From an uncultured Planctomycetia bacterium (GTDB lineage: Bacteria; Planctomycetota; Phycisphaerae; FEN-1346; JAACEH01), in the NCBI GenBank assembly GCA_903929765.1, contig CAIYVX010000024.1, positions 1 to 64,000 on the forward strand: 64,000 nt of DNA. Direction: 5' to 3'. The first letter of the stretch is position 1. Every line of letters starts with the position of its first letter. Below the pieces are notes generated by a model that made no database searches, had not been told where the DNA came from, and saw nothing but the letters and a program-made list of their open reading frames with translations. A program made the translations under genes and the position numbers. Shown in pieces: positions 3,387 through 53,426 of this stretch.

Positions 3387-3474
3387 CACCCTCACCCTAC
3401 CCTCTCCCCTCAAGGGAGAGGGGTGAAGAAGAAACAGAAGAAACGGTAGGGCAGAGATAAACTCTGCCCCTACG
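3387..3474. repeat. Two palindromic elements between gcvH and gcvPA
   Basis: The first (3387-3427) is a copy of the caccctcaccc...CTCTCCC/GGGAGAG...gtgaag family. The second (3446-3474) is a GTAGGGGCAGAG-type palindrome (GTAGGGCAGAG / CTCTGCCCCTAC around a short A-rich loop). Both are joined by an A-rich linker (agaagaaacagaagaaac) that also accompanies the copies elsewhere in the window. Confidence 0.8.
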
Positions 3475-7140: not shown

Positions 7141-8321
7141 ACAAAGCAATTCTTGACGAAGCACGGGTCCTGTCTCCGCGGATCGTGGCCTGGCGGCGCG
7201 ATTTTCATCAGCATCCCGAACTGGGGTTCGAGGAAGTGCGGACCGCCGGGATTGTTGCGGCGGAGTTGGAGCGGCTCGGTTACAAAGTGCGGCGCGGCGT
7301 GGGCAAGACCGGCGTGGTCGGCGACCTGGACGTGGCGGGAGCGCCGGGGCGGATGCTGCTGCGGGCCGATATGGACGCGTTGCCGGTTCAGGAAGCGACC
7401 GACGACGAGTTCGCCTCGGTCGTCCCCGGCAAAGCCCATCTCTGCGGGCATGATGCTCACGTTGCCATGCTGCTGGGCGCGGCCAATTTGCTGGCGGCGC
7501 ACCGGAAGGAGTTGCGGTCCTCGGTGCGGCTCATGTTTCAGCCGGCCGAGGAGCGGCCGATGGGCGGCGCTGCGGCGATGATGGCCGAGGGCGTGCTGGA
7601 AGGCGTCGACCGGGCCGTGGCGATTCACGTCTTCACGGCGCACGAGGCGGGAACCTGGGGCCTCTTGGCCGGGCCGGTCATGGCGGCGGTGGATCGACTG
7701 ACCATCGTCATTCACGGTCGCGGGGGCCATGCGGCCACGCCGGAACTGTGCCTTGATCCGGTGGTCGCGGCGGCGCAGGCGATTATGAATTTGCAGACCA
7801 TCATGAGCCGCCGGATCAAGCCGCTGGACGCGGGGGTGCTAAGCCTCTGCTCGATTCACGGCGGCGAGGCGTTTAATGTGATTCCCGAAACCGTGACCAT
7901 TGTCGGCACGCTGCGGGCCCATTCGCCGTCGATGCGGGACCGGGCCAAGCGGTACGCCCGCGAAATCCTTTCCGGCATCGAGCTGGGCACCGGCACGCGG
8001 ATCGAACTGTCCTTTGACGACAGTTATCCCGTGACGGTCAACAATCCGCAGGTCGTCGAGGACGCCCGCCGTGCGGTGACGGAACTTTTCGGGGCGGCGA
8101 CCATCGTGCCGCAGGAAAAGAAATTCGGCGGCGAGGATTTTTCATTTCTGCTGGAAAAGGTGCCGGGGGCGATGCTCTTTCTGGGCGTGGGGAACGTGAA
8201 GAAGGGGGCCACGGCCTCGCACCATCATCCCGGATTCAAGATTGACGAGGACGTGCTGTGGCAGGGGGCGGCGCTGGAAACGTGTCTGGCCCTGGAGCAT
8301 CACGCAGAACGGCAGGCTTAA
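7137..8321 (+). CDS. M20-family metal-dependent amidohydrolase
   Basis: A 394-residue M20D-type amidohydrolase (N-acyl-amino-acid / hippurate-type). Family features are RRDFHQHPELGFEE at the N terminus, the metal-ligand motif LCGHDAH (Cys103, His105), the catalytic glutamates in QPAEERPMGG, and a dimerisation domain beginning GRGGHAATPE. Substrate is not predictable from sequence. GTG start overlaps the preceding stop by 4 nt, so it is translationally coupled to the LipM-like gene, though no functional link to glycine cleavage is obvious. Transcription should end at the strong terminator at 8421. Confidence 0.88.
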   Translation: MNKAILDEARVLSPRIVAWRRDFHQHPELGFEEVRTAGIVAAELERLGYKVRRGVGKTGVVGDLDVAGAPGRMLLRADMDALPVQEATDDEFASVVPGKAHLCGHDAHVAMLLGAANLLAAHRKELRSSVRLMFQPAEERPMGGAAAMMAEGVLEGVDRAVAIHVFTAHEAGTWGLLAGPVMAAVDRLTIVIHGRGGHAATPELCLDPVVAAAQAIMNLQTIMSRRIKPLDAGVLSLCSIHGGEAFNVIPETVTIVGTLRAHSPSMRDRAKRYAREILSGIELGTGTRIELSFDDSYPVTVNNPQVVEDARRAVTELFGAATIVPQEKKFGGEDFSFLLEKVPGAMLFLGVGNVKKGATASHHHPGFKIDEDVLWQGAALETCLALEHHAERQA

Positions 8322-8330
8322 GACTGAAGG
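8314..8330. repeat. Short heptad-repeat remnant
   Basis: A short GGCTTAAGACTGAAGGGC stretch right at the stop of the M20 gene, of the same type as the GGCTTAA heptads elsewhere. Confidence 0.5.
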
Positions 8331-8420
8331 GCAATCGTCCGCAGCACGGGGCGTGAGCAGCCGTTTCTTAAGAAGGCCGGAATCGGTCTTGTGGTTGAAG
8401 TGAAAGTTTTTCTGCTCTAC

Positions 8421-8464
8421 CAGCAATAAAAAAGCCGCCCGAAGGCGGCTCTTTTTATTGCTGG
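8421..8464. terminator. Bidirectional intrinsic terminator
   Basis: A GC-rich stem AGCCGCC / GGCGGCT with a CGAA loop, extended by flanking A-run and T-run arms that pair with each other (CAGCAATAAAAA ... TTTTTATTGCTG). It lies between the convergent M20 gene and PEP-CTERM gene and serves both strands. Confidence 0.93.
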
Positions 8465-8487
8465 TCGGAGCGACCGGTATCCGTGTC

Positions 8488-9315
8488 TTACGCCTGCTGC
8501 TTGCGCCGCCGGGCGATCAGGCCCGCCAGGCCCAGGCCCAACAAAGACAGTGTCGCCGGCTCGGGAGTGGCGGAGATAGTCAGGTTATCGTAGTAGACGG
8601 GCTGGCCATTCCAATTATCTTCGCTTTCCAACAGCCAGACCTTGGTGATAGGCCCACCGTCCCAATCCGTGGTCTGAGTCATGGTGCTGCCGCCGGGAGC
8701 AGTCACCGTGACCAGAATCGAGTTAAAGGCGGCATTAATATCGAAGGCGATCTCGTAATAGCTATGGGCGGCTGACGGTACAAAGTATCCCATGAGGCCG
8801 CCGGGGCCGCTAATCGGGAAGTCCGAGGCATCGTTGCCGCCTTGGTGACTCCAGTCCTGCTTTAAGAAACTGACACCGCGGTAGACATCCGAACCATCCT
8901 GCATCCAGCCGCGACCGACACTGACTCCGCCGAAACCAGTAAAGTTGTAGCCATACGAGAGTGGGGAGTTCTGGGACGGATCCATCATCACCGAGATGTG
9001 CTGGGGACCGTGGCCCACAGTCAGCGACGTGGGCAGCATATAGACGGCAGCGCCTTCGTAATAGCCGTTGTGAAGGACGGTCAAGGCCTGCGTACCACCG
9101 ACACCGACACCGGACACGACCTGGTAGACGAGGTCGGCCTTGGGATCGCCCGTCGCGGTATAACGATCCGTCCAGGGCGCCGGGGGGGCCGCGCCGGCCG
9201 CATAGCCGGTACCGTCGAAATTAATCACTTCGGCCTGGGCCAGCGGAACCAGGATCAGCAACGCGATGGCCGCCGCCCACACTCCAACTGCACAATTCTT
9301 TCTAATCTTTGCCAC
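8488..9315 (-). CDS. PEP-CTERM sorting-domain protein, secreted
   Basis: A 275-residue secreted protein. It has a basic N terminus and hydrophobic signal peptide ending near AQA, a Gly/Tyr/Thr-rich extracellular beta-type body with no domain I recognise, and a classic PEP-CTERM tail: TPEPATLSLLGLGLAGL then IARRRK. The tail directs proteins to exosortase for processing and surface or EPS association; no exosortase lies in this window. The GTG at 9315 is chosen because GGGGAGGG precedes it and the signal peptide starts there. Function unknown. Confidence 0.85.
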   Translation of the reverse strand: MAKIRKNCAVGVWAAAIALLILVPLAQAEVINFDGTGYAAGAAPPAPWTDRYTATGDPKADLVYQVVSGVGVGGTQALTVLHNGYYEGAAVYMLPTSLTVGHGPQHISVMMDPSQNSPLSYGYNFTGFGGVSVGRGWMQDGSDVYRGVSFLKQDWSHQGGNDASDFPISGPGGLMGYFVPSAAHSYYEIAFDINAAFNSILVTVTAPGGSTMTQTTDWDGGPITKVWLLESEDNWNGQPVYYDNLTISATPEPATLSLLGLGLAGLIARRRKQQA

Positions 9316-37512: not shown

Positions 37513-39798
37513 ATGAGTGAGAATCAGAGCGGGGAAGGACCGGAAGTGACGCGGCTGAAGAAGCTGCTGGCGCGGAAGGAGCCGGAGAAGCTGGAGGCGG
37601 AGTGGATGGCGGTGGTGGACGCGGGCGACCTCGGTTTGGAGGAAGCGGCAGCGGTGCTGGACGTGCTGTCGCACCGTGACGAGGCGGGGCAGGCGGACAC
37701 ATTGTTCTGGTATTACCTGACGGTGACGACGGAACGGGAGGGGGCGGGGGCGGCCGTGGCGGCGGTGCGGCGCGTGGCGGGGCTGATGAAGGGGAACGCG
37801 GTGCTGCGGGAGGAGACGGCGGCGGCGTATGAGCGGGCGTTCGCAGAGACGGCGGACGTGGGGGCGATGACGAAGATGACGCTGCGACGGGCGGACCTGG
37901 CGTATCCGACGGCGGTGGCACGGATGGAATTGGTGCTGAAATTGCGGCCGGGGACGTGCGTGAAGGATACGCGGCTGGGGGAGATGGGCCACGTGGTGGG
38001 GCTGAAGGCGGAGAAGGGTCTGGTGGAGGTGGCGTTGGGGGAGCGGACGCGGACGTACGACGCGGTGGCGTTGGAGCGGATCGAGGCGTTGCCGGAGGAC
38101 GACTTGCGGGCGATGCTGGTTTCGCGGCGCGACGTGCTGGAGGCGCTGGGTCGGGAAGATCCGGCGGCGCTGGTGCGTCTGGTGCTGGGGACGTTCGGTC
38201 CGCGTGTGGAGATGCGGGAACTGAAAACATATTTAGCTCCGGTGATTGGGGCGGATTCGTGGTCGAAGTGGTGGACGGGGGCGCGGGTGCAATTGAAGCG
38301 CGATCCGCTGATCGAGTTGGGCGGGGAGGGGACGAAACAGTGGTTTTTCCTGCGGGCCAAGCCGGTGGCGTACGCGGATGAGTTCAAGGGGCAACTGGCC
38401 GAGGCGGAGGAGCCGGAAGAGAAGCTGACGGCGATCATCGCGCACCTGGAGGAAGGCGGGCACGAGCCGGAAAGCGAGGCGGCGCTGGAGGCACATCTGG
38501 CGGCGGAGCTGGCGGTCTGGGCGGAGGCGTGGCGGGGGAAGAATTTCGGGGCGGCGCTGGGAGCGGCGGCAGTCGCGGCCGCGTTGCGGCCGCGAGCGGG
38601 AGAAAAGACAACAGCAACGGCAGACACGAGCAATATGGGTGAAACAGGTGCACCCTCACCCGGCCCTAAAGGGCCACCCTCTCCCGTCAAGGGAGAGGGG
38701 TTGAAACAACTGCTCGCGGGCGGGACGGATTTGGCGGGGGCGTTGCGGGGACTGTCGAGCGAAAAGCTGGGGCGGTGGATTCTGGAGGCGATTCGGGAGA
38801 ACTTGCCGGAGCGGTGGCCGGGGCTGGGGCTGGAGGCTTTGGCGGGAAGCACGCCGGCGAACTGCGATTGGATTGCGGAAGAGTTGTGCGGGCACGGGCG
38901 GGCGGGGGAGCTTGGGCGGGCGGTGGGGGCGTTGCTGGAGCGGCCGGAGCGGCACGCCGGGGCGGTGGTGTGGCTGTGGAAGGCGGCGGTGGCGGGAGAA
39001 TATGCGGAGGTGCTGGGCGGAGTGGATAAGGCTACGGTGGCGATCCGGTTGCTGGTGGCGGCGGACGGGTTGACGCGGGACACGTTGTGGAGTGCGGCGC
39101 AGCGGCAGAGCCTGTTGCGGCAGATCAGCGCGGCGATTTCGGCTCGGAATTATGAGAGTCTGCGGGCGGTGATGAAAGCGGGGAGCGGGGAACAGGCGAC
39201 GCGGGCGCATCAGGCGACGGAACGGAATACGGGGCTGACGGAAGCGACGCGGCTGAGGGTGCTGGAGATCATCACACAGACGCATCCAGAACTATTTTTC
39301 AAGGCGAAGCCGGCGTGGGAAGAGGACGTGATTTACACGACGGCGGAGGGGTTGGCGAAACGGCGCGAGGAGTTTGCGAACCTGGTGAACGTAAAGATGG
39401 CGGCGAATGCGAAGGCGATCGGGGACGCGGCGGCGCACGGAGATTTGAGCGAGAACGCGGAGTTTACGGCGGCGCTGGAGGAGCGGAATAACCTGACGGA
39501 GAAGGCGTCGCGGCTGGAGGCGGAGCTGAAGAAGGTGAAGACGATCACGGCGGCGACGGCGGCGGGGGAGACGGTGACGGTGGGGAGCGCGGTGCGGGTG
39601 CGAAACGTGACGACGGGTCGGGAGGCGACGTGGAAGTTTCTGGGACCGTGGGATTCGAATCCGGACCAGGGCGTGTTTTCGTACCGGGCGGCGCTGGCGC
39701 TGGAGTTTATGGGGCACAAGGCGGGGGACAAAGTGGAGACGCCAGGGGAGGGGGGGGATCGGGTTTGGGAGATATTGGAGGTTGGGGCGGGAGTGTGA
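37513..39798 (+). CDS. greA: GreA/GreB-family transcript-cleavage factor with long N-terminal region
   Basis: A 761-residue protein whose last about 155 residues are a GreA/B module: a coiled coil with the acidic tip motif GDLSENAEF (Asp644, Glu647 match the catalytic acids of GreA), then the FKBP-like C-terminal domain ending VWEIL. The N-terminal 600 residues are helical and repeat-like, similar to the long GreA proteins of Chlamydia. It should rescue backtracked RNA polymerase. Residues about 375-397 are encoded by an in-frame palindromic repeat (PSPGPKGPPSPVKGEG), which looks like an insertion into the linker. ATG with GGGGAAAAG. Confidence 0.82.
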   Translation: MSENQSGEGPEVTRLKKLLARKEPEKLEAEWMAVVDAGDLGLEEAAAVLDVLSHRDEAGQADTLFWYYLTVTTEREGAGAAVAAVRRVAGLMKGNAVLREETAAAYERAFAETADVGAMTKMTLRRADLAYPTAVARMELVLKLRPGTCVKDTRLGEMGHVVGLKAEKGLVEVALGERTRTYDAVALERIEALPEDDLRAMLVSRRDVLEALGREDPAALVRLVLGTFGPRVEMRELKTYLAPVIGADSWSKWWTGARVQLKRDPLIELGGEGTKQWFFLRAKPVAYADEFKGQLAEAEEPEEKLTAIIAHLEEGGHEPESEAALEAHLAAELAVWAEAWRGKNFGAALGAAAVAAALRPRAGEKTTATADTSNMGETGAPSPGPKGPPSPVKGEGLKQLLAGGTDLAGALRGLSSEKLGRWILEAIRENLPERWPGLGLEALAGSTPANCDWIAEELCGHGRAGELGRAVGALLERPERHAGAVVWLWKAAVAGEYAEVLGGVDKATVAIRLLVAADGLTRDTLWSAAQRQSLLRQISAAISARNYESLRAVMKAGSGEQATRAHQATERNTGLTEATRLRVLEIITQTHPELFFKAKPAWEEDVIYTTAEGLAKRREEFANLVNVKMAANAKAIGDAAAHGDLSENAEFTAALEERNNLTEKASRLEAELKKVKTITAATAAGETVTVGSAVRVRNVTTGREATWKFLGPWDSNPDQGVFSYRAALALEFMGHKAGDKVETPGEGGDRVWEILEVGAGV
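38635..38707. repeat. Palindromic repeat inside the GreA-like gene
   Basis: A full copy of the caccctcacccggccctaaagggccaccctctccc...gggagagggg element, including GGCCCT/AGGGCC and CTCTCCC/GGGAGAG stems, and its upstream gtgaaacaggtg part. It is read in frame. Its nearest relatives are intergenic copies at 39856 and 53225. Confidence 0.85.
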
Positions 39799-40077
39799 GA
39801 AGAATTAAAAATTAAAAATTCAAAAGAAAAAAGAAGCAGCAACAACAACGGCAGCGCCCGGCGATTTGGGAGAAACAGGTGCACCCTCACCCGGCCCTAA
39901 AGGGCCACCCTCTCCCGTCAAGGGAGAGGGGTGAAGAAACGGCACCCTCACCCTACCCTCCCCCAAGGGGGAGGGGTGAAGAAACAGAAGAAGAAAAAGA
40001 AGAGATATTTCATTGAGTTGCATACCGGGGGTTTCACCCCCGGCTAGGAACCCCGCGCCCCTTTGGGGCGGACAGAA
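39799..40077. repeat. Repeat-filled gap after the GreA-like gene
   Basis: A chain of elements: an AATTAAAAATTAAAAATT AT-rich repeat (39803-39832), two copies of the CTCTCCC/GGGAGAG element (39856-39934 and 39942-39978), and a CCGGGGGTTTCACCCCCGG hairpin followed by GCGCCCCTTTGGGGCGGAC (40021-40075). It separates convergent genes and may also act as terminator. Confidence 0.8.
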
Positions 40078-53122: not shown

Positions 53123-53224
53123 AGCAATATCATAACCTGATTGCCGTACGGCGCGAAGGCGGAGTCAATGGCGAATTCCGGGTGAAGAAGAAACGGCAAG
53201 AGCACAAGGCGAGATTGGCGAAAC

Positions 53225-53404
53225 AGGTGCACCCTCACCCGGCCCTGAAGGGCCACCCTCTCCCTTCAAGGGAGAGGGGTGAAGAAACAAAGAAACAGCA
53301 ACACCCTCACCCTACCCTCTCCCCTCAAGGGAGAGGGGTGAAGAAACAGAAGAAGCAGCAACACCCTCACCCGACCCTCACCCGTCGAGAGAGAGGGGTG
53401 AAAC
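53225..53404. repeat. Three tandem copies of the CTCTCCC/GGGAGAG element
   Basis: Copies at about 53225-53285, 53302-53344 and 53362-53404, joined by A-rich linkers (agaaacaaagaaacagcaa). The first has the extra GGCCCTGAAGGGCC hairpin; the third has a mutated stem. Another partial copy follows at 53406. Confidence 0.9.
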
Positions 53405-53426
53405 AAGGAGAGTGGTGAAACAACAA

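Follow-up and report, generated by a model that had tools for sequence, protein, structure and literature searches.

The window analysed here is a stretch of 64,000 nucleotides (positions 1-64,000, forward strand) of contig CAIYVX010000024.1 from an uncultured Planctomycetia bacterium (GCA_903929765.1), whose assembly of 3.83 Mb in 116 contigs is a draft and probably metagenome-assembled. An intact ORF of 761 aa at 37513..39798 (+) was assigned to a GreA-like gene by its domain matches; the encoded protein has a long, helical N-terminal region, followed by a GreA_GreB_N domain (residues 607-675) and a GreA_GreB C-terminal domain (residues 686-757). In the middle of this gene, a full copy of a palindromic element lies in frame in the ORF (38653-38700, +). 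The original prediction had reported such an in-frame copy, which is borne out by the intact ORF and by shuffled sequences: the core hairpin pattern occurs at 5 sites in the window and at none in 100 dinucleotide shuffles, so the match in greA is not due to chance.

The greA copy, all parts of which are on the forward strand, has the layout CCCTCACCC-GGCCCTAAAGGGCC-A-CCCTCTCCC-GTCAA-GGGAGAGGG, translated in frame as PSPGPKGPPSPVKGEG. The CCCTCACCC block (38653..38661), delimited by block comparison and with a complement, GGGTGAGGG, that corresponds to the third strand of the triplex motif described below, is followed by hairpin 1, GGCCCTAAAGGGCC (38662..38675), whose stem covaries among copies, and by hairpin 2, CCCTCTCCC-GTCAA-GGGAGAGGG (38677..38699), whose 9-bp stem shows compensatory changes among copies. 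Upstream of the core are a leader, AGCAATATGGGTGAAACAGGTGCA (38629..38652), recognized by copy comparison as type A (family consensus GGcGATtTGGg.GcAACAGGTGCA), and an A/C-rich tract of period 3, GAAAAGACAACAGCAACGGCAGACACG (38602..38628), similar to those found ahead of type-A and short copies. Since the A-rich tract and the leader GGCGATTTGGGAGCAACAGGTGCA are common to type-A copies and thus belong to the insert, its start is placed near 38602, and the whole insert (tract, leader and element core) probably spans 38602..38700, with ends accurate to within about 10 nt. The range first given for the element, 38635-38707, does contain the copy but is too narrow on the 5′ side. The 3′ junction, GTTGAAACA (38700..38708), reads GGG-TTG-AAA in the greA copy and is open, whereas extragenic type-A copies usually have GTGAAGAAG (GTGAAG) at this position, giving GGG-TGA, an in-frame stop in the phase used by greA. 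Coding signal is present on both sides of the insert, and the segment folds with z-scores of about -5, as DNA and as RNA alike.

Orthologues and the linker of the GreA-like protein

In the AlphaFold model of the protein, residues 364-394 are the one long internal stretch in which pLDDT falls below 50, and this predicted disorder agrees with the type-A consensus in pointing to an insert start near 38602. The proposal that the element entered a flexible linker is thus supported, as the segment is predicted to be an unstructured linker. It had also been proposed to align orthologous proteins, in which the same Pro/Gly segment might be found at the same place, and none of the 20 GreA-like relatives compared, of which the nearest was 44-46% identical, has it. 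A relative of the same family has LRRHAPDVPEPKPNALESVLSGVTDL where the present genome has LRPRAGEKTTATADTSNMGETGAPSPGPKGPPSPVKGEGLKQLLAGGTDL, and is shorter by 24 residues exactly there, making the insert a net gain of 24 codons against this orthologue. A scan of genome contigs with the single GreA protein gave no match, and one with the GreA alignment recovered only relatives already known, from Phycisphaerae and Planctomycetota MAGs; a search of viral contigs gave no match.

Two trivial explanations can be weighed against these alignments. The Pro/Gly linker could be ancestral or low-complexity coding sequence that came to resemble the repeat by convergence, and linker length does vary among the GreA-like orthologues. 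However, the segment is absent from the relatives, and the greA copy shares a perfect DNA match of 47 nt with its nearest sister copy, an intergenic type-A copy at 39884..39930 (+), 0.1 kb downstream of the GreA-like gene and 1.2 kb from the copy within it, in addition to the common leader and tract. Because the DNA is identical to that of non-coding copies, we consider this reading to be already refuted, with almost no probability left to it. Alternatively, the segment could be an assembly artefact, a repeat-induced misjoin, as repeats break assemblies and this draft consists of many contigs. This is very improbable, since the flanks of the insert align colinearly, with the frame kept, to the N- and C-terminal portions of a single orthologue, and reads of the usual length are longer than the repeat.

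The same linker has received another repeat in a different genome. In the GreA-like gene of genome G005, the same alignment column is occupied by TGTGGCACGGCCGGCTTGCCCGGCCGTGG...CCCACGGCCGGCCAAGCCGGCCGTGCCACA, an inverted pair of an unrelated REP, in frame, located by pattern match at G005:C69:17525-17596 (L015). This REPIN (GGCACGGCCGGCTTGNCCGGCCGTG) has 303 matches in the G005 genome when up to 3 mismatches are allowed, and these are frequently paired at a spacing of about 47 bp. As the G005 pair is unrelated to our element and lies in the same linker, two repeat families have entered the GreA linker independently.

The element family and its relation to known repeats

The exact oriented pattern of the element has at least 240 copies in the 3.83-Mb assembly, compared to 0 for the reversed control. 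With one mismatch per block allowed, 248 copies were counted in a sample of stretches totalling 1.12 Mb (about 29% of the genome), in which genes were predicted simply by codon bias. Copies fall into three forms: short, with TA as second loop and the tail GTGAAGAAG; long type A, with the leader GGCGATTTGGGAGCAACAGGTGCA, to which the greA copy belongs; and long type B, with the leader GGCCTCAAC. In the window, pattern matches include a short intergenic copy with second loop TA (3389..3422, +) and a long and a short copy in tandem, also intergenic (53232..53337, +). Both hairpins covary among copies, with 98% of cells paired and 17 double-change cells, compared to 2.4 expected in shuffles. We considered whether the element is a conserved coding unit and rejected this, as loop 2 ranges from 14 to 18 nt in extragenic copies; indels across these copies do not conserve the frame, so the element is not itself such a unit. 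Additionally, most copies are bordered by A/C-rich tracts of period 3 (GAAGAAACAACAGCAACGGC; window 39800-40020 and 53200-53420; L063 and others), frequently together with a second hairpin, GTAGGGACAGGGCTCTGCCCTGTCCGG; its translation is GQxRALSLRT, and a similar peptide occurs in mutL (L057).

No match to Rfam was found in the window. By sequence, the element is a variant form of TM_ECO, an intrastrand triplex motif defined as CCCTCNCCC N3-6 GGGNGAGGG N3 GGGNGAGGG; the folding computed here is that of the hairpins only. Holder et al. (2015, PMC4666352) found TM_ECO in over 260 genomes and, in E. coli K-12, exclusively between genes. The 9-nt blocks CCCTCNCCC, GGGNGAGGG and GGGNGAGGG are kept in the same order, loop 1 has 2-5 nt, and there are hundreds of copies. 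A strict match to the triplex-motif blocks was found for 205 of the 248 copies, the greA copy included. In contrast to the 3-nt second loop of TM_ECO, the second loop has 2 nt in 91 copies and 14-18 nt with a hairpin in 113, the form seen in greA, where hairpin 1 takes the place of that loop. None of the 248 copies fits the published strict TM_ECO pattern, and therefore we call the element a variant and not TM_ECO. Related forms were detected in 23 of 61 relatives and in 23 of the 149 genomes sampled from the phylum, each count including the present genome. In a distant relative (G140: C1; L177, L178), short triplex motifs form dense arrays with a spacing of about 170-250 bp; we rejected the copies of this genome as genic, since the ORFs that contain them are apparently spurious and situated in clusters of repeats.

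The original prediction had likened the element to Rickettsia palindromic elements (RPEs), which are known in-frame palindromic elements (PMC2229807, PMC3767692); the RPE in gmk is translated and the enzyme is active (reviewed in PMC2229807). The comparison holds as an analogy, because RPE-1 and others are likewise palindromic repeats found in frame in many conserved genes and in exposed loops. It does not extend to the sequence, which is unrelated and belongs to the triplex-motif family CCCTCNCCC/GGGNGAGGG, and RPEs are 100-150 bp long and alphaproteobacterial. Identity with RPEs was rejected, since the blocks differ and the relatives are Planctomycetota, not Rickettsia or Wolbachia. The element also resembles REPs in being a palindrome of 20-60 nt with many dispersed, mostly extragenic copies, although none of the 8 Y1 genes, among which are RAYT genes, is flanked by the element. 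GTAG/REP elements, known for example from Opitutus terrae, occur in some ORFs, with uvrA and other DNA-repair genes among the hosts (Di Nocera et al. 2013, PMC3733652). Our family is similar in consisting of short palindromes, mostly intergenic with some in ORFs, in the PVC superphylum, but it is defined by other blocks; on the other strand beside the hairpin, short copies have GGGTAGGG, and long copies such as that in greA have GGGTGGCC, without GTAG. Dispersed hairpins in genomes with RAYT transposases also recall the REPINs and RAYT-REP systems treated by Bertels and Rainey (2011, PMC3116915), and the G005 element, an inverted REP pair, has the REPIN form. Thus, in-frame REPs and RPEs are already known, and what is described here are in-frame copies of a triplex-motif variant.

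Copies in other genes and their reading phase

The element had been thought to occur otherwise only between genes, which is true of the window but not of the genome, whereas the E. coli copies of the triplex motif were always intergenic. Of the 248 sampled copies, 38 (12-15%) were inside predicted genes; the 15% share is slightly high because two of the stretches, C52 and C86, were chosen for translated matches, and it falls to about 12% without them. With 82.5% of the sample coding, this is a depletion of about 5.5-fold. In the sampled part of the genome, the element is in frame in at least 24 predicted genes besides greA, including uvrA (two copies), mutL, valS, dnaX and genes for an asparagine synthase, a TauE protein, a cytochrome b, a squalene-hopene cyclase and an HDOD protein. 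Seven in-frame copies are spread over the gene of a UvrD-like helicase and the neighbouring PD-(D/E)XK gene (L153:166-5549, G000:C86); a recurring peptide in these two genes, NPSPGAGGMAAAVCRHESQxP, also looks like another repeat module. Alignment to solved structures shows about 59 additional residues in UvrA (query 220-287, 2r6f 213-220) and about 42 at the element in ValRS (query 666-710, 1gax 364-366), and the element is thus an insertion in both proteins relative to those structures.

It had further been suggested to examine the codon phase of other copies. Phase 0 (CCC-TCN-CCC), in either orientation, was used in 23 of 25 genes, where the phases open in extragenic copies would predict 12.4 (P about 4e-6), and in 28 of 29 copies within Pfam-supported genes. 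Copies in the opposite orientation have, for the most part, no open phase other than phase 0. For those in the same orientation a second phase is open too, but the peptide that short copies would encode there is markedly basic, with a net charge of +6.6 compared to -0.4. The phase bias is best explained by selection on the peptide, and there may be, besides this later selection, a codon-phase preference of insertion itself. The rule fails in a distant genome rich in triplex motifs (G197), in which the few intragenic copies span phases 0, 1 and 2.

These data also bear on whether selection favoured the insert because GreA gains from it, through a longer linker or a regulatory mRNA hairpin, and did not just tolerate it. 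The intact hairpins of the coding copy and the presence of two different REP families in one linker would fit such a role. However, there are many unrelated host genes with nearly always a similar peptide, and the depletion in genes points to tolerance, which makes a benefit very improbable.

Possible origin of the insertions

We estimate at roughly 0.8 the probability that the greA segment is a lineage-specific insertion of a dispersed, REP-like element made of triplex blocks, probably moved by a RAYT and tolerated in the linker. The element would spread as single-stranded, hairpin-folded DNA, and its mover would most likely be the cell's own Y1/HUH transposase of RAYT type, acting in trans; the genome has several, and three Y1 proteins passed the REP_Tyr_transpos cut-off, with others below it. 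Most insertions into genes would be purged by selection. What persists would be copies that lie in a solvent-exposed linker, contain no stop in the phase in which they are read and encode a hydrophilic, near-neutral peptide (PSP..GEG). The copy in greA would be one of these, with its hairpins kept and the TGA of extragenic copies missing in its phase. The insert probably has little effect on the function of GreA, a protein that is known here from its predicted gene.

The description of the element as mobile is supported by its copy number and scattered insertions, but not by any transposase linked to the family. The CCCTC element family flanks 0 of the 8 Y1 genes, unlike in REPIN/RAYT systems, and a RAYT as the mobilising enzyme is therefore a guess. 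A serious rival, although we hold it to be the less probable course, is copying during replication or repair, by template switching or gap repair at triplex-stalled forks and with no enzyme of its own, in which case the copy in greA would have been templated during repair. This could account for the Y1 genes not being flanked and for copies that are often tandem or clustered with A-rich tracts, and it agrees with the report that the motif is tied to instability and has no transposase near it in E. coli (Holder et al. 2015). On the other hand, hundreds of separate sites, a common leader and composite modules look like a discrete mobile unit, and another REP family does flank one of the several RAYT genes.

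Whichever way copies arrive, insertion of the triplex-block element into coding frames extends in-frame palindrome insertion to a widespread motif family whose E. coli members were described as lying strictly between genes, and a single genome offers dozens of examples in proteins that are conserved and testable. With two unrelated repeats in the GreA linker and a nearly fixed phase, insertion preference and survivor bias can be tested directly against each other, and such genomes are natural maps of insertion-tolerant protein loops. More speculatively still, the element might be a regular source of in-frame linkers, using one codon phase in both orientations, with linkers hit again by unrelated REPs.

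A transposase-like segment was also observed within a coding frame. The sole valS found in the assembly (L149:7181-11023, +; G000:C82, about 71.2-75.0 kb) contains an in-frame Y1/HUH RAYT-like protein, apparently complete (about 7863-8642), where the CP1 editing domain begins. It lies between the 49-nt arms of an inverted REP pair and adds about 260 residues compared to 1gax, with the CCCTC element further on. The REP of these arms has about 108 matches in the genome.
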